Source of the DNA: a bacterium
GTDB taxonomy: Bacteria > Desulfobacterota > Binatia > HRBIN30 > CADEER01
Direction of reading: 5' to 3'
Assembly: GCA_019637795.1 (NCBI GenBank)
Contig: JAHBUY010000001.1
Span: 517,001 to 581,000 of the forward strand
DNA: 64,000 bases
In this document: piece after piece, positions 43,350 to 53,387 of the stretch
How the letters are laid out: each line of letters starts with the position of its first letter
How positions within the stretch are numbered: position 1 is the first letter of the stretch
Translations under genes and position numbers: made by a program
The notes under the pieces: generated by a model
Told to the model about the DNA's origin: nothing
Database searches by the model: none
The model's input: only the letters and a program-made list of their open reading frames with translations

Positions 43350-43421
43350 CCCCGCCGCGGCGCGCCACGGCGTCCCGCGTCCGACTTGCGCCCCGCCCGG
43401 CCAGCGCCCAGGGTGTGCGCC

Positions 43422-45587
43422 ATGCGACGATTCCTCTCCCTGGTGCTGCCCCTCGGCCTCGTCCTCGTTGCGCTCGCGGCGCGCGCCGACGATGCGGCGC
43501 CGACCTGGCCGCGGACCTTCGCGAACGATGGCGACCAGCTCGTCGTCGCCCAACCGCAGCTCGACACCTGGGCCAACCGCATCGATTTCACCGGCCGCGT
43601 GGCGGTGACGCTGACCCCGAAGGGCGGCGCGGCGGCCAGCGGCGTGCTGCGCATCGCGGCGCGCACGACGACCGACCTGCCGCAGCGGGTGGTGGCCCTG
43701 AACGACGTGCGCGTCCTCGACGGCCAGTTTCCGTCGCTGCCGCCGGCCGCGGCCGCGCAGACGGTGCGGCTGGCGAGCGCGCTGCTGCCGACCCAGGGGC
43801 TGACCGTGCCGCTCGACTACCTGCTGGCGGCGCTGGTGCAGGCCGGGCAGACCGCCGCCTCGACGACGCTCGACACCGCGCCGCCGACCATCTTCCTCGC
43901 CGAGCAGCCGGCGCGGCTGGTGCAGTTCGACGGCGCGCCGGTCTTCGCGCCGGTGGCCGGCACCAACGTCCAGTACGCCGTGAACACCAACTGGCCGCTG
44001 CTGCGCAGCAGCGACGACGCGGCCGTCTACCTGCTCGACGCCACCGGCTGGCTCACCTCGCAGTCGCTGGAGACGGGGGTCTGGCAATACGCCGACCAGC
44101 TCCCGGCCAGCTTCGCCTCGCTCCCCGACACGGCGGAGTGGCAGGACGTCCGCCAGAGTCTGCGCGCGCCGGCGCCGGTCGGACAGGCGCCGCTGCTGAT
44201 CGACGTCGCGACCGCGCCCGCCGAGCTGATCAGCATCGTCGGCGAGCCGCAGTACCAGCAGGTGCCCGGCACCGGCATCTACGTCGTCACCAACACCAGC
44301 AGCCTGGTGTTCTGGGACGGCTACGCGAAGGCGTACTACTACCTGGTGGCGGGGCGCTGGTTCCGCGCCGCCGCCCTCGACGGGCCGTGGACGTTCGCCA
44401 CCACCACCCTCCCCGCGGATCTGGCCAACATCCCGCCGGACGGACCGCTGGCTGCCGTCCTCGCCTCGGTGCCGGGCACCGCCGAAGCGCGCGAGGCGGC
44501 GCTGCAGGCGCAGATCCCGCGCCTCGCGACGGTGAGTCGATCGACCACGGCGACGGTGGCGTACGACGGCGAGCCGCAGTTCGCGCCGATCGCCGGCACG
44601 TCGCTCGCCTACGCGGTGAACACGCCGAACGACGTCGTCCGGGTCGGCGCCGCGTACTACCTGTGCCAGAACGGCGTCTGGTTCACCGCCGCGGCGCCGT
44701 CGGGACCGTGGAGCGTCGCCGCCGCGGTGCCGGATGCGATCTACGCCATCCCGCCCAGCTCGCCGCTCTACCACGTCACCTACGTGCGGCTGTACCAGGT
44801 GAACGACGCGCAGGCGGTGTACGGCTACACCGGCGGCTATCTCGGCGAGTACGTCGCCGACGGCGTGGTCACCTGGGGCACCGGGTACCCCTACGCGCCG
44901 TACGTCGGCAGCGGCGCGGCGCCGATCTACTATCCGCGTCCGTACACCTACGGCTGCGACGCGTTCTACAACCCGCTCACCGGCACCTTCCATCGCGCCG
45001 GTTACGGATACGGACCGTACGGCGGGATCGCCGCCGGCGCGGCGTACGATCCGGCCACCGGCACCTACGCGCGCGGCGCGGCGGTGAACGGGCCGTACGC
45101 ATCGGACACGGCCGCGCAGGCGTACAACCCGCGCACCGGATCGTATGCCGCGGTGGAGACGCGGTCGAATCCCTACGCGGCCTGGGACCAGGGCGTCGTC
45201 TACGGCCCGCGCCGCGCCATCCAGGTCGGGTCGGTGTCGGACGCGCGCGGCACGGCGACCCGGGCGCAGACCGCCGGGGGTGGAGAGGCGGTGGCGGTCC
45301 AGGGCGACGACCGCTCCGCCACCGTCGTGCGCGCGCCCGGCGGCGACTGGTACGCCGGCAGCGACGGCCACGTGTACCAGCGCAGCGACGCCGGCTGGCA
45401 GCGCGCCGACGCCGTGCCCGGTCACGACGCCGCCAGCCGCGAGGTGTGGAACGGGCTCGCCGCCGAGTACGCCGCCCGCCAGCGCCAGATGATGATGCGC
45501 CAGCGCTATGCCGGCTGGGGCGGCGGCGACTTCGCCGGCCTCGGCGGCGGCCGCTACGCCGGCGTGCGCGGCGGCGGCCGCCGCTGA
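43422..45587 (+). CDS. Secreted protein with three internal repeats and a Tyr/Gly-rich tail
   Basis: The 721-residue protein has a signal peptide (about 1-23, ending LAARAD). After an N-terminal domain (about 25-165) three related modules follow, each of about 75-110 residues: (1) VQFDGAPVFAPVAGTNVQYAVNT, (2) IVGEPQYQQVPGTGIYVVTNT, (3) AYDGEPQFAPIAGTSLAYAVNT. Each goes on with a Tyr/Trp-rich strand set (..YYLVAGRWFRAAALDGPW..; ..YYLCQNGVWFTAAAPSGPW..). The last third is Gly/Tyr-rich with short repeats (YNPLTGTFHRAGYGYGPYG, YDPATGTYARGAAVNGPYA, YNPRTGSYA). It is probably an outer-surface or periplasmic structural protein. I know of related proteins only as unassigned secreted or carbohydrate-binding-like proteins, so no function is claimed. 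It is followed by the PqqD gene after 32 bases. Confidence 0.75.
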   Translation: MRRFLSLVLPLGLVLVALAARADDAAPTWPRTFANDGDQLVVAQPQLDTWANRIDFTGRVAVTLTPKGGAAASGVLRIAARTTTDLPQRVVALNDVRVLDGQFPSLPPAAAAQTVRLASALLPTQGLTVPLDYLLAALVQAGQTAASTTLDTAPPTIFLAEQPARLVQFDGAPVFAPVAGTNVQYAVNTNWPLLRSSDDAAVYLLDATGWLTSQSLETGVWQYADQLPASFASLPDTAEWQDVRQSLRAPAPVGQAPLLIDVATAPAELISIVGEPQYQQVPGTGIYVVTNTSSLVFWDGYAKAYYYLVAGRWFRAAALDGPWTFATTTLPADLANIPPDGPLAAVLASVPGTAEAREAALQAQIPRLATVSRSTTATVAYDGEPQFAPIAGTSLAYAVNTPNDVVRVGAAYYLCQNGVWFTAAAPSGPWSVAAAVPDAIYAIPPSSPLYHVTYVRLYQVNDAQAVYGYTGGYLGEYVADGVVTWGTGYPYAPYVGSGAAPIYYPRPYTYGCDAFYNPLTGTFHRAGYGYGPYGGIAAGAAYDPATGTYARGAAVNGPYASDTAAQAYNPRTGSYAAVETRSNPYAAWDQGVVYGPRRAIQVGSVSDARGTATRAQTAGGGEAVAVQGDDRSATVVRAPGGDWYAGSDGHVYQRSDAGWQRADAVPGHDAASREVWNGLAAEYAARQRQMMMRQRYAGWGGGDFAGLGGGRYAGVRGGGRR

Positions 45588-45619: not shown

Positions 45620-45889
45620 ATGGACCCCGCGCGCCCACTCGCCCGCTGTGACGGGCTCGAGGTGATCGCGACGCCGGACGGCTACGTCGTCCACCAGCCG
45701 GCTCGGGATCGGGTGCACCATCTGAATCCCACCGCGGTGCTGGTGTTCGAGCTGTGCGACGGGACGACGCCGGCAGGCGAGATCGCCGCGCGCGTGCAGG
45801 CGGCGTGGGCGCTGGCCGACGCACCGGTCGACGAGGTGCGCCAGTGCCTGGCTCGCCTGCTCGACGAGGGCCTGGTCACCGCCGTCTGA
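45620..45889 (+). CDS. PqqD-family protein (RiPP recognition element fold)
   Basis: The 89-residue protein matches the PqqD/RRE pattern: a first beta strand LEVIATPDGYVVHQPARDRVHHLNPTAVLVFELCDG (the HHLNxTAxxVFELCDG line is diagnostic), then GEIAARVQAAW and an acidic helix with LLDEGLV. Such domains bind the leader of a peptide that is to be modified. Here no radical-SAM gene is adjacent. Instead a 68-aa peptide gene and two glycosyltransferase genes follow within 2.6 kb. The ATG at 45620 has a weak ribosome site. It may bind the small peptide encoded at 46055; that is inference from neighbours. Confidence 0.82.
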   Translation: MDPARPLARCDGLEVIATPDGYVVHQPARDRVHHLNPTAVLVFELCDGTTPAGEIAARVQAAWALADAPVDEVRQCLARLLDEGLVTAV

Positions 45890-46054
45890 ACCCGCGCGCC
45901 GCCGATGGCGGGCCGCTCCGCGGGCGGCGGCGATGACGGCTTGGGCCGGGGTCGCGACGGACCAACGCCGCGACTTTGACTCGCTCGCATCCTTCGCCTA
46001 TCACCGACCCGGCTGGCGGGCGGCGAGACGACGTGACCATCGGAGGACGGCGAC

Positions 46055-46261
46055 ATGGCGACGGCACCGAGCATCGAGCAGATTGAGCGCGCACTGCGGA
46101 CCATCGACCCGGCGAAGCGCCGCCTGGTCGCGAGCCTGGTGAGCGACGCGGAGTTCGCGGCCCCGCTGGTGGCCTCCTTCGCGACCACCGGAGTCTCGAG
46201 CCACGCCGTCCAGCCGCAGAGCGGCTCGAACCTCGGCCGCCGCCTGCGGCAGACCCGCTAG
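46055..46261 (+). CDS. Small peptide, possible RiPP/glycopeptide precursor (68 aa)
   Basis: This short ORF has a strong ribosome site (GGAGG eight bases before ATG 46055). The product has a helical, leader-like first part (SIEQIERALRTIDPAKRRLVASLVSDAEF, about 6-34) and then a Ser/Thr/Gln/Asn-rich part (TTGVSSHAVQPQSGSN), ending in RRLRQTR. There is no Cys, membrane segment or signal peptide. The leader-plus-tail shape, the RRE protein 165 bases upstream and glycosyltransferases downstream suggest a precursor that could be O-glycosylated on Ser or Thr. It could also be an ordinary small helical protein; I do not recognise a family with certainty. Confidence 0.6.
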   Translation: MATAPSIEQIERALRTIDPAKRRLVASLVSDAEFAAPLVASFATTGVSSHAVQPQSGSNLGRRLRQTR

Positions 46262-46337
46262 CGGCACCGCGTTCCCCGCGACGCGACGCGCACCGCGACA
46301 CAGCGGTCACGCGTCGCGCCCGGCGCCTCCCGGCGGC

Positions 46338-47504
46338 GTGCCCTCACCCCCCAACACGGACCTGGCGTCGCCGGACACCGTCCGCCTCTCCGCCGCGATC
46401 ATCGTCAGGGACGAGGCGGCGCACCTCCGGCGCTGCCTCGCCTCGATCGTGCCGCTCGTGCACGAGATCGTCGTCGTCGACACCGGCTCGAGCGACGACA
46501 GCCCACGGGTGGCGGCCGCGTTCGGCGCCCGCGTGTCGTCGTTCCCGTGGCGCGGCGACTTCGCGGCGGCGCGCAACGCGGCGCTCGAGCGCGCCACCGG
46601 CGCCTGGATTCTCTACATCGATGCCGATGAGCGCGCGCAACCGACCGACACCCGCGCGCTGCTGGCGACCCTCGCCGACCCGCGGCTGGTGGCCGCCTCG
46701 GTGCGCTTCCGGCCGCGCGCCGGCGTCACCCGCTACGACGAGTGCCGGCTGTTCCGCAACGACCCGCGCATCCGCTTCCGCAACGTCATCCACGAGACCA
46801 TGCTGCCCAGCGTGCACGCCGTGGCGCGCGCCGACGGCCTGGCGATCGGCCGCACGGCGCTGGCGCTCGACCACCACGGCTACGACGGCGACCAGGGCCG
46901 CAAGCACCGGCGCAACATCCCGCTGCTGCGCCAGCGCCTGGCGCGTGATCCCGATCACGTCTACTCGTGGAATCACCTCGGACAGGCGCTCGACGGCAGC
47001 GGCGACCGCGCCGCGGCGCTCGCCTGCTGGCGCCGGGCGATCGCGATCGTGCGCGCCCGCGGCGTCGAGAGCGCGCTCGACGCGCTGCCCTACGGATCGC
47101 TGCTCCTGGCCGAGGGCGTCGAAGACGCGCCGGCGCTGCTCGACGAGGCGCGCGCGCGCTTCCCCGGCGATCTGCTGTTCCGCTGGCTCGCCGGGCGCCG
47201 GATGGCGCAGGCGGGCGCGTTCGACGACGCCGTCCGCCTGCTCGACCCGCTCGCCGGCATCGACGCCGAGACCTACTGCGCCGAGAGCGGCGTGTCGTAC
47301 GACGCGTCCATCTTCGGCGTGCCCACCTGGGACACCCTCGCCATGTGCCACTTCCAGCGCGGCCGCTACGCCGAGGCCGCGTACTGGTGGGGACGCGCGG
47401 CGGACGCCGAGCCGCAGCGCCTCGAGCTGCGCACCAAGCGCCGGCTCGCCGAGGCGCGGAACGGCGCGCGGCGTCCCGGGCCGCGACCGGAGCCGGATCG
47501 ATGA
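46338..47504 (+). CDS. Family-2 glycosyltransferase with TPR domain (SunS-like layout)
   Basis: The 388-residue protein has a GT-A domain first (about 15-225: LSAAIIVRDEAAHLRRCLASI, EIVVVDTGSSDDSPRVA and the DxD-type IDADER). A TPR-like helical domain follows (about 225-375: DHVYSWNHLGQALDGSGDRAAALACWRRA). This layout is shared by SunS-type peptide S/O-glycosyltransferases and by many bacterial GT2-TPR proteins of unknown acceptor. It starts with GTG at 46338; no better in-frame start is near. Its stop overlaps the next GT's start (ATGA at 47501). The acceptor is probably a peptide or protein, given the PqqD and peptide genes upstream. Confidence 0.85.
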   Translation: MPSPPNTDLASPDTVRLSAAIIVRDEAAHLRRCLASIVPLVHEIVVVDTGSSDDSPRVAAAFGARVSSFPWRGDFAAARNAALERATGAWILYIDADERAQPTDTRALLATLADPRLVAASVRFRPRAGVTRYDECRLFRNDPRIRFRNVIHETMLPSVHAVARADGLAIGRTALALDHHGYDGDQGRKHRRNIPLLRQRLARDPDHVYSWNHLGQALDGSGDRAAALACWRRAIAIVRARGVESALDALPYGSLLLAEGVEDAPALLDEARARFPGDLLFRWLAGRRMAQAGAFDDAVRLLDPLAGIDAETYCAESGVSYDASIFGVPTWDTLAMCHFQRGRYAEAAYWWGRAADAEPQRLELRTKRRLAEARNGARRPGPRPEPDR

Positions 47505-48469
47505 GCGACGCCCCGGTGATCGCGCCGGTGACCGACGGGGCGGCGCGGCCGTTCTGGTCGGTGATGATCCCGACCTACGAGCCCGATCCCGCCTTCCTCC
47601 GCCAGGCCCTCGCCTCGGTGCTGGCGCAGGATCCGGGCCCGGCGGAGATGGAGATCGTGCTGGTCGACGACGCCTCGCGGCGCGTCGACCCGCGCGACGG
47701 CATCCCGGCCGGCGCCCGCGACCGCATCGGCTGGGTGCGGCAGCCGCAGCACGTCGGCATCGGACGCAACTGGAACGCCTGCGTGCAGCGGGCGCGCGGG
47801 CACTGGGTGCACCTGCTGCACCAGGACGACCTGCTGCGCCCCGGCTTCTACGCTCGCCTGCGGGCCGCCAGCGCGCGCTGCCCGCAGGCCGGCGCCGCCT
47901 TCTGCCGCGATGTCATCATCGATCGACGCGGCGAGGTGGTCGCCGCGCAACGGATCCTGCGCCAGCCAGCGGGCATCTTCGAGGACTGGATCGAGCACAT
48001 CTTCGTCGGTCTGCACCTGCGCTGCGTGGCGCTGGTGGTGAAGCGCGAGGTCTACGAGACGCTCGGCGGCTTCCGCCTCGACCTCGACTACGCGCTCGAC
48101 TGGGACATGTGGAAGCGCATCGCCGCCGCCCGCCCCCTCTGGTACGAGCCCGAGGCGCTCGCCTGCTACCGCAGCCACGGCGCCTCGGCGTCGATCGGCT
48201 TCCAGCGGGTCGGCGACAACCTGGTCGAGATCGCGCGCAGCATCGCGCTCTCCGAAGCGCTGCTGCCGCCGGCGACGGCCGCCGCCATCACGCGGCGGAC
48301 GCGCGCGAACTACACCCGCTACGGCGCCGGCCTGGCGTGGCAGGCCCTCGCGGCGGGCGACCTGCGCACCGCCCTCGCCCAGCTCCGCGCCGCCCGCGCG
48401 CTGGGCACGCGGCGGGACATCGCCAGGGCCTTCGTCGCGCGCGCCCGCCGCGCCTGGCACGAGCGCTGA
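47501..48469 (+). CDS. Family-2 glycosyltransferase
   Basis: The 322-residue protein has a GT-A fold: FWSVMIPTYEPDPAFLRQALASVL, EIVLVDDASRR, LLHQDDLLRPGFY as the DxD-type motif (about 107), and ALDWDMWKRIAAARPLWYEPEALACYRSHGASAS as the acceptor-side motif. It has no TPR or membrane helix, so it is a soluble enzyme. It overlaps the TPR glycosyltransferase and so is made with it, perhaps adding a second sugar. A 15-bp GC stem after the stop (48495-48528) ends this run. Confidence 0.88.
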   Translation: MSDAPVIAPVTDGAARPFWSVMIPTYEPDPAFLRQALASVLAQDPGPAEMEIVLVDDASRRVDPRDGIPAGARDRIGWVRQPQHVGIGRNWNACVQRARGHWVHLLHQDDLLRPGFYARLRAASARCPQAGAAFCRDVIIDRRGEVVAAQRILRQPAGIFEDWIEHIFVGLHLRCVALVVKREVYETLGGFRLDLDYALDWDMWKRIAAARPLWYEPEALACYRSHGASASIGFQRVGDNLVEIARSIALSEALLPPATAAAITRRTRANYTRYGAGLAWQALAAGDLRTALAQLRAARALGTRRDIARAFVARARRAWHER

Positions 48470-48545: not shown

Positions 48546-48953
48546 TCAGTCGGTGGCGCAACACGACGCCCGCTGCGGCGTCGGTTGCGGGGTGTCGGCC
48601 AGCACCGTGTAGATCTCCCACTCGCGGTTGTCCGCAGCGGTGATCCAGAACTTGTCCTGCACCGCATAGCAGCACGTGACGCCGTCCTCGTGCCGCGGCG
48701 CGAATCCCTCGCCCGTCAGGCGCGCGGATTCCGTCACCACCTCGCCGGTCGATTCCACCTCGATGCCGAGATGGTTGAGCGAACCCGGCTCACCCATGCC
48801 CTCGATGAGCACCAGCTTCAGCGGCGGATCGGCGATCACGAAGTTGGCATAGCCGGGTCGCCGCTTGGCGGGCTCGGTGGCGAAGAGGCGGCGGTAGAGC
48901 TCGACCGCCGCATCGACGTTGCTGACGTTCAGGGCCAGTTGGACACGCGACAT
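48546..48953 (-). CDS. arsI: ArsI-type C-As lyase (CadI/ArsI glyoxalase-fold protein)
   Basis: The 135-residue protein has the vicinal-oxygen-chelate fold of ArsI. The metal ligands correspond to Gln5, His61 and Glu113. The thiol pair that binds trivalent organoarsenicals is Cys94-Cys95 in GVTCCYAVQDKFW. A further CC pair lies at the C-terminus (131-132). ArsI uses O2 and Fe(II) to split the C-As bond of methylarsenite and aromatic arsenicals. It starts at 48953 with a strong GGAGG site and is divergent from arsR, with a shared operator region. CadI is the near relative, but the arsenic neighbours favour ArsI. Confidence 0.9.
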   Translation of the reverse strand: MSRVQLALNVSNVDAAVELYRRLFATEPAKRRPGYANFVIADPPLKLVLIEGMGEPGSLNHLGIEVESTGEVVTESARLTGEGFAPRHEDGVTCCYAVQDKFWITAADNREWEIYTVLADTPQPTPQRASCCATD

Positions 48954-48977
48954 GGAACCTCCTTCTGTATCGATGGA

Positions 48978-49014
48978 TGTCGATATTGAAACATGCATCG
49001 ACAACTGTCAATAT
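48978..49014. promoter_or_regulatory. Overlapping palindromes in the arsI-arsR divergent promoter (ArsR operator)
   Basis: Two inverted repeats overlap: TGTCGAT (48978-48984) with ATCGACA (48997-49003), and ATATTGA (48983-48989) with TCAATAT (49008-49014). The stretch is AT-rich in GC-rich surroundings and lies 24-85 bases from the two starts, so ArsR bound here could control both units. Confidence 0.65.
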
Positions 49015-49062
49015 GGATTCACCAGGTGGGCGAGGATGGCAGCGATGAAGCAGGAGACAGCG

Positions 49063-49437
49063 ATGAGGAAGAAGGTGGCGACGATCGGCCGCTGTTGCGC
49101 GCCGGTGTTCCACGGCGAGCTCGGCCAGGAGCACGCCGAGCACCTCGCCGACGCGTTCAAGGCGATTGCCGACCCGGCGCGGCTGCGGCTCCTGAGCTTC
49201 ATCGCCGCGCAGCCCTCCGGCGAGGCCTGCGTCTGTCATCTCACCGAGCCGCTCGGGCTGTCGCAGCCCACGGTCAGTCACCACCTGAAGGTGCTGTTCA
49301 CCGCCGGCCTGCTGCAGCGCGAGCGACGCGGCACGTGGGTCTACTACCGCATCGTGCCGGACGAATTGGCGAGGCTCCGCGACGCCCTGGCGGCGCCGGC
49401 CGCCGCCTCGCGCAAGACGAGCGCGGGGACGCGATGA
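49063..49437 (+). CDS. arsR: ArsR-family arsenic-responsive repressor
   Basis: The 124-residue winged-helix protein has the metal site CVC (Cys56-Val-Cys58 in EACVCHL) in the alpha-3 helix, and a Cys-Cys pair (11-12) at the start that may supply a further thiol. The recognition helix is [19 protein letters not shown]. Arsenite binding to such sites releases DNA. The ATG at 49063 is preferred since AGGAG lies six bases before; ATG 49045 and 49036 are in frame but less well placed. It overlaps acr3 by 4 bases (ATGA). The unit arsR-acr3-arsC is a classic ars operon. Confidence 0.93.
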
Positions 49438-50534
49438 CCGCGATGCCCGTGGCGACCCGGCGGCTCGCCGTCCTCGACCGCTACCTGACCGTGTGGATCT
49501 TCCTCGCCATGCTGGTCGGCATCGGCAGCGGCTACCTCGTGCCCGGCCTGGAAGCCTTCCTCGACCGCTTCAGCGTCGGCACGACGTCGATTCCCATCGC
49601 CGCCGGCCTGATCCTCATGATGTACCCGCCGCTGGCCAAGGTCCGCTACGAGACGATGGGCCGCGCCTTCCGCGATGCGCGCATCCTCGCCCTGTCGCTG
49701 GTGCAGAACTGGGTGATCGGGCCGCTGCTCATGTTCATCCTGGCCATCGCGTTCCTGTCGGACCGGCCCGAGTACATGGTCGGCCTCATCCTCATCGGCC
49801 TGGCGCGCTGCATCGCCATGGTGCTCGTCTGGAACGACCTGGCCCAGGGCGACGCCGAGTACTGCGCTGGCCTGGTGGCGTTCAACTCGGTGTTCCAGAT
49901 CCTGTTCTTCTCGCTCTACGCGTATGTCTTCATCACCCTCCTGCCCGCCTGGCTGGGACTGCCGGGCGTCGCGGTCGACGTGACCATCGGCGAGATCGCC
50001 ACCAGCGTGTTCGTCTATCTCGGCATCCCGTTCCTCGCCGGGCTGCTGACCCGCGTCGCGCTGCTGCGCGCCCGCGGCCCGCAGTGGTACCAGGAGCACT
50101 TCATCCCGGCGATCAGCCCGCTGACGCTCGTCGCCCTGCTGTTCACCATCGTCGTCATGTTCTCGTTGAAGGGCGAAGCGATCATCCAACTGCCCTTCGA
50201 CGTGCTGCGCATCGCGGTGCCGCTGCTGATCTATTTCGTGGCGATGTTCCTCCTGTCGTTCTTCATGAGCCGCGCCATCGGCGCGACGTACCCGCAGTCG
50301 GCGACGCTCTCCTTCACCGCCGCGTCGAACAACTTCGAGCTCGCGATCGCGGTCGCGGTGGCGACCTTCGGCATCCATCATGGAGCGGCGTTCGCGGCCG
50401 TGATCGGCCCCCTCGTCGAAGTGCCGGTGATGATCGGCCTGGTGACCGTCGCCCTCTGGTTCCGGCGCCAGTACTTTCGCGACACGGGAGACGCCGCGGC
50501 GCCGTTCCCCTCCGCCGCCGGGCCGCCGAGATGA
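49434..50534 (+). CDS. acr3: Arsenite efflux permease Acr3
   Basis: The 366-residue protein has ten predicted membrane helices and the Acr3 hallmark [19 protein letters not shown] with the essential Cys126. [17 protein letters not shown] in the later half is the other conserved helix. It expels arsenite using the proton gradient. It overlaps arsR upstream and arsC downstream, so all three are translated together. Confidence 0.95.
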
Positions 50535-50941
50535 CCACGGTGATCTTCGCCTGCGTGCACAGCGCCGGCCGCTCGCAGATGGCGGCGGCGTTCTTCAACG
50601 CGCTCGCCGACCCGGCGCGCGCCCGCGCCGTCGCCGCCGGCACGGCGCCGGGCGACCGCGTGCACCCCGAGGTGGTGGCGACGATGCGCGAGATCGGCAT
50701 CGACCTCTCCGCCGCGCGGCCCCGCCGCCTCACCGATGCCCTGGCCGCCGACGCGCAGCTCCTGATCACCATGGGCTGCGGCGAGGCCTGCCCGCTCGTC
50801 CCCGGCCTGCGGCGAGACGACTGGGCCCTGGCCGATCCGAAGGGGCGATCCGCCGACGAGGTGCGGGCCATCCGCGACGACATCCGCGCCCGCGTGTCGC
50901 GCCTGGTGGCCGAGCAGGGCTGGCAGCGGGCGACCGCCTGA
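50531..50941 (+). CDS. arsC: Arsenate reductase, low-molecular-weight phosphatase type
   Basis: The 136-residue protein has the CX5R loop Cys8-VHSAG-Arg14 of thioredoxin- or mycothiol-coupled ArsC proteins, and MGCGEACP (about 78-85), whose Cys residues match the redox pair of that branch. [10 protein letters not shown] carries the conserved Asp-Pro that protonates the leaving group. It reduces arsenate to arsenite for export by Acr3, and overlaps acr3 by four bases. Confidence 0.93.
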
Positions 50942-51041: not shown

Positions 51042-53387
51042 CTAGCGGACGCGGAGGATGAGAATCGCCCCGGCGATGCTGAGGACGGCGGCGTACAGGA
51101 GCCCGGCGGCGACGGAGACGTGCGCCCAGAGCGCGCCGACGATGATGCTGGAGAACAGATCGCCGACGCCGTTGACGCTGCCCAGCACGCCGTAGCCCAG
51201 GCCGCGGATCTCGGCCGGCAGGAGCTCGGCGGCGATCGCCCCTTCGAGCGCGTCCTCGACGGCCATGAAGACGCCGGCGGCGGCGAAGAGCAGCGACAGG
51301 TAGGCGAGATCGCTGCTGTCGCGCATGAATCCGACGAAGGTGAGCGCGGCCAGCAGATACCCCGCCGCCAGCAGCGCACGCCGTCCCACCCGATCGCCGA
51401 GCACGCCGACGGGGAAGGCGGCGGCGGCGTAGAGCGCATTGCGCAGCGCGTAGAGCAGGGCCGCCACCTGCGCCGCGTGCGCCATGCCGTGGGTCTCCCC
51501 GAGGATGTCGGTGGCGCGCAGGATGAGCAGCGTCGGCGCGAAGTCCGCCAACCCGAAGACGAACACGCCGACCAGGAAGCGGCGGAAACCGATCGGCAGG
51601 GCGCGCAGGCTACTCCAGAATCCGAGGTTGTGATTCGGCGCCCGCCGGCGCTCCCGCACCATGACGGCGAAGGCGAGCGCCGAGCCGAGGCCGGGAATCA
51701 GCGTCAGCAGGAACACCACCCGGAACGGCATCGCCGCATCGGTGAAGCGGCCGTGCAGCAGGCCGATGGCCACGACGCCGAGGAGCGGTCCGACGACGGC
51801 GCCGATGGTATCGCCGGCGCGATGGAAGCCGAACGCCTTGCCGACGTCGGCGGGGGCGACGGATTCGACCAGCATCGCGTCGCGCAGCGAGCCGCGGACG
51901 CCGCGGCCGAACCAGGCCAGGACGCGCCCGACCAGGACCAGCGGCCAGCCGGCCGCCAGCGCGAACAGCGCCTTCGCCGCGCCGGTCAACGCGTACCCGC
52001 CGACGGTGATCGCCTTGCGGTGGCCGATGCGATCGCTCCACCACCCGCTGCCCAGCTTGGCGAAGCTCGCCACCGCGTCCGAGACGCCCTCGATCGCGCC
52101 CAGCGCGGCGGCCGAGACGCCGAGCGTCGCGAGGAACGCGGGCAGCACGGCGGTGGCCATTTCGTGGCCGGCATCGCTGAGCAGACTGGTCAGCCCCATC
52201 CCCACGACGTTGCGGTTGAGCCAGGAGCGCCGGCCGCTGCCGTCGTCGTGTCCCGCCGACCGCACGGCGGCCCGCACGCGCGCATCGGCGTCATCGGCGG
52301 CGATCGCCAGCAACGCCGAATGGTCGCCATCCCCGTTGCGCTCCAGGCCGCGCACCGCTTGGTAGCGCACGGCCGCGTCGGGATCGCGCAGCAGCGGCTC
52401 GCAACGGGCGGCAAACGCCGCCGGCGCGCCGGCGCTCGCCACGGCGACGAGGCGGCGCCGGGCGCGGCTGCCGAGGGGCACCTCCGCGCCATTCGCGGTC
52501 CGCACCCGGCCGGTGATTGCCGCCTCGAGCACGGTCGGAGCGACGCGCGGCAACAACGTCCGCAGCGCGTCCTCGCACTCGCTCTGCGTCGGCACGTCCG
52601 GCGCGTCCAGTCCGCGCAGCAGCGGCGCGATCCCCGCCGCGTCGCCCGCCACGGCGACCAACGCCAGGGCCGCCGCCGATGCCACGGCCGGGTCATCGTC
52701 GCCCGCCGCCATCCGCAGCTCCGGGACGGCATCGACCGCGGCGAGCTCGCCCAGCAGGCCCGCGGCCTGCGCCCGCCGGATGCGGCTGCCGGGGGGCTCC
52801 AGGCCGCGCACCTGCCGCGGCGTCACCAGCGCGGCGCGCAGCGCCGGGATGGCGCGGCCGCCGAACCGCCGCAGCGCGGCGGCGGCGGGCTCGCGCTTGG
52901 CGTCGTCCTCCAGGCACGCGATCAGCGGCTCGATCGCCGCCTCGTCGCCCAAGCGCGACAGCGCCTCGCCGGCGCCGATGAGATGGGAGCGAGCGAGCGC
53001 ATCCCGCAGGACGGCGCGCGCCGGCCCATCGTCGAAGCGCGCCAACTGCCGCGCCGCGGCGTTGCGCACGGTTTCCTCCGCCTGCCGGAGCACCGGATCG
53101 GCGATCGCGGCGTGATCGCGCGCCACCGCGCCGACGAGGGCCGCCCGCGCCGACGCGCCGCCGAAGGCCCCCAGACACTCGGCCGCCGCCACGCGGGGCT
53201 GCGGAATCACCGACGGCGGCCCGGCGAGCAACGCCGCCAGCGCCGGGATCGTCACCGGCCCGGCGGCCAGGATCTCGCCCTGGATGCGAACCAGCGCGTG
53301 CAGGTCAGCGAGCTGCGCGACCAGCGCCCTGGCGCGCGCGCCAGTGGCGTCGTCGACCTGGGGCTCGCCGCCGAGGACGTCCACCAT
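51042..53387 (-). CDS. HEAT-repeat / MFS transporter fusion
   Basis: The 781-residue protein has an N-terminal HEAT/armadillo-like helical solenoid (about 1-378; repeated D.A(I/V)..L...L.D....VR..A pattern) fused to a full MFS transporter (about 388-781, 11-12 helices). The MFS part has GWWSDRIGHRKAITVGGY as the loop 2-3 motif A and R-D-A-hallmarks in FGRGVRGSLRDAMLVESV. It lies downstream of enolase by 21 bases on the minus strand and convergent with arsC. The solenoid should be cytoplasmic and may recruit a protein. Cargo is unknown; being next to ars genes is suggestive only. Members of the MFS branch with DAxxxxxxP-type drug-efflux pattern are common. Confidence 0.83.
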   Translation of the reverse strand: MVDVLGGEPQVDDATGARARALVAQLADLHALVRIQGEILAAGPVTIPALAALLAGPPSVIPQPRVAAAECLGAFGGASARAALVGAVARDHAAIADPVLRQAEETVRNAAARQLARFDDGPARAVLRDALARSHLIGAGEALSRLGDEAAIEPLIACLEDDAKREPAAAALRRFGGRAIPALRAALVTPRQVRGLEPPGSRIRRAQAAGLLGELAAVDAVPELRMAAGDDDPAVASAAALALVAVAGDAAGIAPLLRGLDAPDVPTQSECEDALRTLLPRVAPTVLEAAITGRVRTANGAEVPLGSRARRRLVAVASAGAPAAFAARCEPLLRDPDAAVRYQAVRGLERNGDGDHSALLAIAADDADARVRAAVRSAGHDDGSGRRSWLNRNVVGMGLTSLLSDAGHEMATAVLPAFLATLGVSAAALGAIEGVSDAVASFAKLGSGWWSDRIGHRKAITVGGYALTGAAKALFALAAGWPLVLVGRVLAWFGRGVRGSLRDAMLVESVAPADVGKAFGFHRAGDTIGAVVGPLLGVVAIGLLHGRFTDAAMPFRVVFLLTLIPGLGSALAFAVMVRERRRAPNHNLGFWSSLRALPIGFRRFLVGVFVFGLADFAPTLLILRATDILGETHGMAHAAQVAALLYALRNALYAAAAFPVGVLGDRVGRRALLAAGYLLAALTFVGFMRDSSDLAYLSLLFAAAGVFMAVEDALEGAIAAELLPAEIRGLGYGVLGSVNGVGDLFSSIIVGALWAHVSVAAGLLYAAVLSIAGAILILRVR

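Follow-up and report, generated by a model that had tools for sequence, protein, structure and literature searches.

Does a row of four genes encoding an RRE protein, a short peptide and two glycosyltransferases represent a functional unit, and if so, which residue of the peptide would receive the sugar? The question is raised by positions 45620-48469 of a 64,000-nucleotide stretch of DNA from a Binatia bacterium (the window), which a preliminary description had read as a possible undescribed glycosylated RiPP-like cassette. Re-inspection recovered all four genes on the + strand, in the order and at the positions originally given: a PqqD-family RRE protein of 89 aa (45620..45889), a precursor peptide that is indeed 68 aa long and Cys-free (46055..46261), a predicted SunS-like peptide glycosyltransferase of the GT2-TPR type (46338..47504; 388 aa, GTG start) and a second GT2 (47501..48469; PF00535, 1.8e-16). 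The peptide frame is preceded by a strong Shine-Dalgarno sequence, ATCGGAGGACGGCGACATG, and the ATG of the second GT2 overlaps the GT2-TPR stop codon as ATGA, congruent with the coupling proposed earlier. One flank of the cassette encodes a 2-oxoacid:ferredoxin oxidoreductase and the other ArsR, SBF-family and LMWPc-family proteins, with enolase also among the neighbours; polysaccharide genes are absent among the flanking genes. Directly 3', the arsenic-resistance-like set (48546-50941) comprises a VOC-like ORF, ArsR, an SBF-family transporter and an LMWPc-family ArsC-like gene, and at 51042-53387 HEAT repeats and an MFS transporter are encoded together in a single long ORF. Upstream, 43386-45587 encodes a 733-aa secreted-looking protein without a Pfam or NCBIfam assignment.

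A genome-collection search with the GT2-TPR enzyme yielded 80 loci, of which the closest 60 were picked by GT similarity (score of at least 195 bits), and the 20 more distant ones, mostly from other phyla, served as controls. Of the 60 closest loci, 57 encode PqqD, 55 a peptide homologue and 39 an HprK-like kinase, as opposed to 0/20 for each of the three in the distant GT2 loci. Just upstream of the GT and on the same strand, we found the peptide in 52 of the 60 (within 1.3 kb), PqqD in 43, both in 40, and both together with the kinase in 26. The co-occurrence in other genomes that had been put forward as a check is hence clearly present: the gene set is linked by more than chance, the window cassette is not a local accident, and RRE protein, leader peptide and SunS-like GT make up a conserved unit. 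Polysaccharide loci often contain GT2 enzymes, and the two glycosyltransferases might be read as belonging to such a locus, beside a PqqD that has nothing to do with them and a small ORF present by chance. We rejected this reading, which we hold to be practically negligible in probability, as contradicted by the linkage data: the arrangement is repeated in at least six phyla with homologous peptides, close GTs, for which polysaccharide loci with no peptide had been named as counter-evidence, nearly always adjoin a peptide, and the neighbours in the window are the ferredoxin oxidoreductase, the arsenic-resistance-like genes and enolase.

The RRE protein agrees with its earlier PqqD/RRE-like designation in both family and modelled fold. 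It matches Pfam PF05402 (E 1.5e-8; 35.3 bits versus a cut-off of 23.4) and aligns with 33 cassette homologues, and its AlphaFold model (pLDDT 96.1) has the TbiB1-leader complex 5v1v, PqqD 5sxy and the lasso B1-leader 6jx3 among its top five PDB folds. As looked for in a RiPP cluster, a winged-helix PqqD-type protein is thus encoded. The peptide, covered by no Pfam or NCBIfam family, shares with its homologues a common leader (residues 1-42 in the window, 46055..46180), consisting of a variable acidic start, R/K-R (KRR in the window), a hydrophobic stretch with an aromatic-x-x-P motif (F34-A-A-P37) and a V/S-F anchor (VASF). In alignment A1 of the family, R22 and P37 are invariant and F34 nearly so, and all 64 peptides contain the aromatic-x-x-P, even though the anchor pattern applied did not require the aromatic residue. 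The tail of L017, mis-anchored by this pattern, and four L032 and other Dadabacteria peptides with 'PAVLSV', which it missed, were excluded from the counts. A recent structure-based survey (PMC12710340) gives W/Y/LxxP/L/I as the motif that many RREs recognise, those of the PqqD and lasso types among them. A conserved leader with a motif of known RRE recognition type and a variable core are encoded beside an RRE gene, as in RiPPs. We predict that PqqD binds the leader, the best reason being that the aromatic-x-x-P is of the reported recognition type and that the PqqD model resembles B1-leader complexes. Similar to PqqD and the lasso B1 RREs (TbiB1, FusE), the protein is small and stand-alone and comes with an aromatic-x-x-P leader; the cassette however differs from these systems in having a glycosyltransferase as partner enzyme, and no radical SAM protein, lasso cyclase or leader peptidase was found with it.

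Since circularity was to be avoided, a second profile, A2, was built from the leader only, with the tail omitted. Across 35 cassette genomes it matched almost solely cassette peptides, and in wider samples it recovered further cassettes, including four tandem peptides (YVTNITG, YVTNLPV, YVTNIPA and YLTNLS) beside PqqD, kinase and GT, as well as cassettes with (SNG)n and SGN-repeat tails. Every newly recovered tail contains Asn. L191, L195 and L196 duplicate sequences already in the set, and the new evidence therefore amounts to about seven loci. Homologues free of PqqD or GT neighbours had been specified beforehand as counter-evidence; strong leader-profile matches adjoin PqqD and/or a GT, with few exceptions. 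L193 adjoins PqqD and has no GT nearby, and L199, which lies on a short contig, has a GT there and no PqqD. The weak matches (E > 1e-6) include apparent ordinary Tat signals, such as L149. Three further weak, Tat-like leader matches (L157, L159 and L171) lie beside PqqD and/or HprK where no gene for a GT2-TPR enzyme is present, which points to a broader group built on PqqD, HprK and leader.

How, then, would the peptide leave the cell? The leaders display twin-arginine-like features, with RR in 42 of 54 loci, K/R-R-x-hydrophobic in 50 and an A-x-A, resembling a signal peptidase site, in 45, and TatC is encoded in the window genome; dedicated Tat models, however, matched only 3 of 23 peptides, and those weakly. 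With such a leader, a dedicated transporter or protease would be unnecessary. The lack of an obvious transporter or protease remarked on in the preliminary description holds in that no ABC transporter-peptidase was present among the scanned neighbouring genes; it is however better explained by the Tat/signal-peptide-like leader than by an incomplete cassette.

The window leader departs from this picture. Two acidic residues lie within its hydrophobic stretch, a feature unique in the family, its hydrophobicity is the fourth-lowest among 64 peptides, and in place of A-x-A it has only S-H-A. Because of the acidic residues, the S-H-A and a core Asn without x-S/T, the window copy may work differently or be degrading. 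That it is a decaying remnant, with the kinase missing and the signal region damaged, would be in line with the two charged residues, with the absence of HprK from the cassette (HprK-like matches elsewhere in the genome are weak and do not adjoin it), and with the cassette being present only in this genome and missing from the other four of the family. On the other hand, all frames are open, the ribosome-binding site is good, the second GT is coupled, the invariant R and P as well as the core Asn are retained, and 14 other loci likewise combine PqqD, peptide and GT without HprK; we judge decay to be distinctly improbable. The HprK-like kinase is dispensable, since those 14 cassettes have none beside the GT; the window cassette, which likewise lacks it, represents a somewhat divergent member of the family.

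The GT2-TPR enzyme matches PF00535 (4.6e-20) and TPR models, and its structure model (pLDDT 95.1) aligns with SunS and ThuS over nearly the full length (VIA Z 24.6/22.4; next Z 18.6), in support of the SunS-like layout attributed to it. Among NCBIfam models SunS TIGR04195 ranks first, at 1.1e-16 and 60.7 bits, far under the cut-off of 350, and the closest PDB sequence match is GmaR, then SunS, each of which glycosylates a protein or peptide. Across 52 homologues, YIDADE and H152-E153 are invariant. The modelled enzyme hence resembles the glycocin GTs SunS and ThuS, with which the cassette shares a short peptide and a predicted cytoplasmic GT2 with a helical C-terminal half. Unlike glycocins, it has a Tat-like rather than a double-Gly leader, a PqqD RRE and a conserved core Asn, and neither a Cys core with disulfides nor an ABC transporter-peptidase with a double-Gly leader was found; the GG site is absent from the window peptide. 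A glycocin assignment was thus rejected, as there is no Cys in the window core and no transporter-peptidase among the neighbouring genes scanned, though the modification step is glycocin-like. SunS acts on Cys and GmaR on Ser/Thr of flagellin, and to our knowledge no GT2 enzyme is known to glycosylate Asn.

The tails nevertheless direct attention to Asn. They are diverse, encompassing short cores of about 6-25 residues, Thr-rich tails (L020, L033), domains such as S74 (L012, L022, L029), pentapeptide repeats (L015, L060), a Hint-like domain (L017) and an IPTL-CTERM anchor (L026), and arrays of PNQYQ (L041), PNQTF (L067) or SNM (L031). In 53 of 54 loci the initial part of the tail contains Asn, versus 19.3 expected from the 2.3% background of neighbouring proteins, and the single exception carries it further along. 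Counted from the residue that follows the anchor Phe, the first Asn comes at an offset of 12-17 in 54 of the 64 peptides; in the window it is N59 of the core motif GSNLG (46223..46237), at offset 16. An N-x-S/T was found in 36 loci, whereas shuffling the tails 2000 times gave 14.8 +/- 3.0 and never more than 25. Of the 90 tail Asn sites only some half (43) take this form, which the window Asn, with NLG, lacks. Both Ser and Thr, present in the tails of 50 and 42 of 54 loci, are enriched, and Cys occurs in 9 of 54 tails. What had been called a Ser/Thr/Gln tail is therefore better described by one family-conserved Asn, the only near-universal tail residue far above background.

These data also bear on Ser/Thr as the acceptor expected at the outset. 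The same RRE-guided cassette might O-glycosylate core Ser/Thr, with the conserved Asn serving recognition or another modification, a reading that draws on the Ser/Thr enrichment, the Thr-rich tails, the Ser adjoining the window Asn, and GmaR, a Ser/Thr O-GlcNAc transferase, being the closest solved relative by sequence, ahead of SunS. The L041 tail, however, consists of ten PNQ units and is free of Ser, Thr and Cys beyond the leader, so Ser/Thr is not the universal acceptor; L052 moreover ends in GNV, and Asn alone is near-universal. We deem O-glycosylation unlikely. In sum, the reading as a glycosylated RiPP-like cassette is partly supported: a conserved unit of RRE, leader and SunS-like GT is borne out, a Ser/Thr acceptor is not.

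Related loci encode additional GTs: GT4-like in 42 of the 60, GT71 (Mannosyl_trans3) in 26, GT62 (Anp1) in 25, GT32-like in 13 and GT10 in 12, along with NTP_transf_5 in 25, all with 0/20 in the control loci. GT71, GT62 and GT32 are families of yeast mannan synthesis, and their presence thus fits glycan extension. The window cassette has its own second GT2 as the sole additional GT; without a close homologue in the 60 related cassettes, it is probably a glycan-extending enzyme specific to the window lineage. The abundance of sugar-extending GTs would also suit a peptide acting as a signal-anchored carrier or primer that replaces a lipid carrier for a surface glycan or glycoprotein, with no free bioactive peptide being made, an alternative that is compatible with Asn glycosylation. 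The S74, pentapeptide and IPTL-CTERM tails point in the same direction, and no immunity or transporter genes were seen. Several mature cores would however measure only about 6-10 residues, and the window cassette, with its one extra GT, lies outside any polysaccharide locus; we regard a carrier role as a minor, if serious, possibility.

Our preferred reading, which we consider probable though by a modest measure, is a system in which peptides are glycosylated in the cytoplasm under the guidance of an RRE. PqqD would bind the aromatic-x-x-P segment of the leader and present the peptide to the GT2-TPR enzyme, whose TPR half may help to bind it. The GT-A half would then transfer a sugar onto the conserved Asn, usually 12-17 residues past the leader anchor. 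Next, the glycan would be extended by the second GT2 in the window and by GT4, GT71, GT62, GT10 or GT32 enzymes elsewhere, and finally, Tat and signal peptidase would probably export the glycopeptide and cut off the leader. The more specific proposal of a new RiPP class, in which a PqqD-type RRE guides a SunS-like GT2 to N-glycosylate an Asn in a peptide whose leader resembles a signal, with GT71, GT62 and GT32 extending the glycan in relatives, we advance tentatively, at somewhat less than even chance. If true, RRE-guided peptide modification and protein glycosylation, so far separate fields, would be joined, N-linked glycopeptides would be made by a GT2-fold enzyme, and the leader, at about 40 residues, would represent a portable tag. 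GT41 N-glycosyltransferases glycosylate Asn in the cytoplasm with a different fold and no RRE or leader; the present system would thus add a cytoplasmic route to Asn glycosylation besides GT41 and oligosaccharyltransferases.

Among systems already catalogued, HPr-rel-A (TIGR04352/TIGR04353) is similar in the HprK-like kinase and PqqD of most related loci and in weak model matches. All matches are however far below the curated cut-offs (TIGR04353 in the window: 24.8 bits versus 35), the window cassette has no kinase, and an HprK-related kinase A with a PqqD_rel_X above cut-off was not found. RRE-GT fusions were noted by RRE-Finder (PMC7470986) and by the 2025 structure-based survey (PMC12710340), the latter with PF00535; in the available parts of both, RRE-GT2 fusions are listed without a described system, while here the genes are discrete and accompanied by a defined peptide family. 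Our literature search, covering few subscription journals and preprints, returned no description of an RRE-leader-GT2 cassette, an absence that is no proof of novelty.

The distribution of the GT is patchy in the tree, where the nearest relative of the window enzyme is a Rokubacteria sequence (61% identity, support 100). Many carriers are uncultured bacteria, but named strains of Devosia, Bradyrhizobium and Pseudonocardia are also among them. In Alphaproteobacteria, leader searches at class and family level showed the system to be rare, and a plasmid-collection search with the GT gave distant GT2 matches only, and no cassette. Elsewhere in the window genome (C1:820327-822045, L117), a second GT2-TPR-like region, 38% identical, resides in a 1213-aa ORF with no PqqD or peptide nearby. 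Among relatives from the order and family to which the window belongs, L118 (1367-1708) and L116 (1977-2045) have a Tat-like peptide with a Ser/Thr-rich tail near a PqqD or PqqD-HprK locus. Finally, Peptidase_S74 (endosialidase chaperone) domains are unusual outside phage tail proteins, and in L012, L022 and L029 they are fused to the leader peptides.
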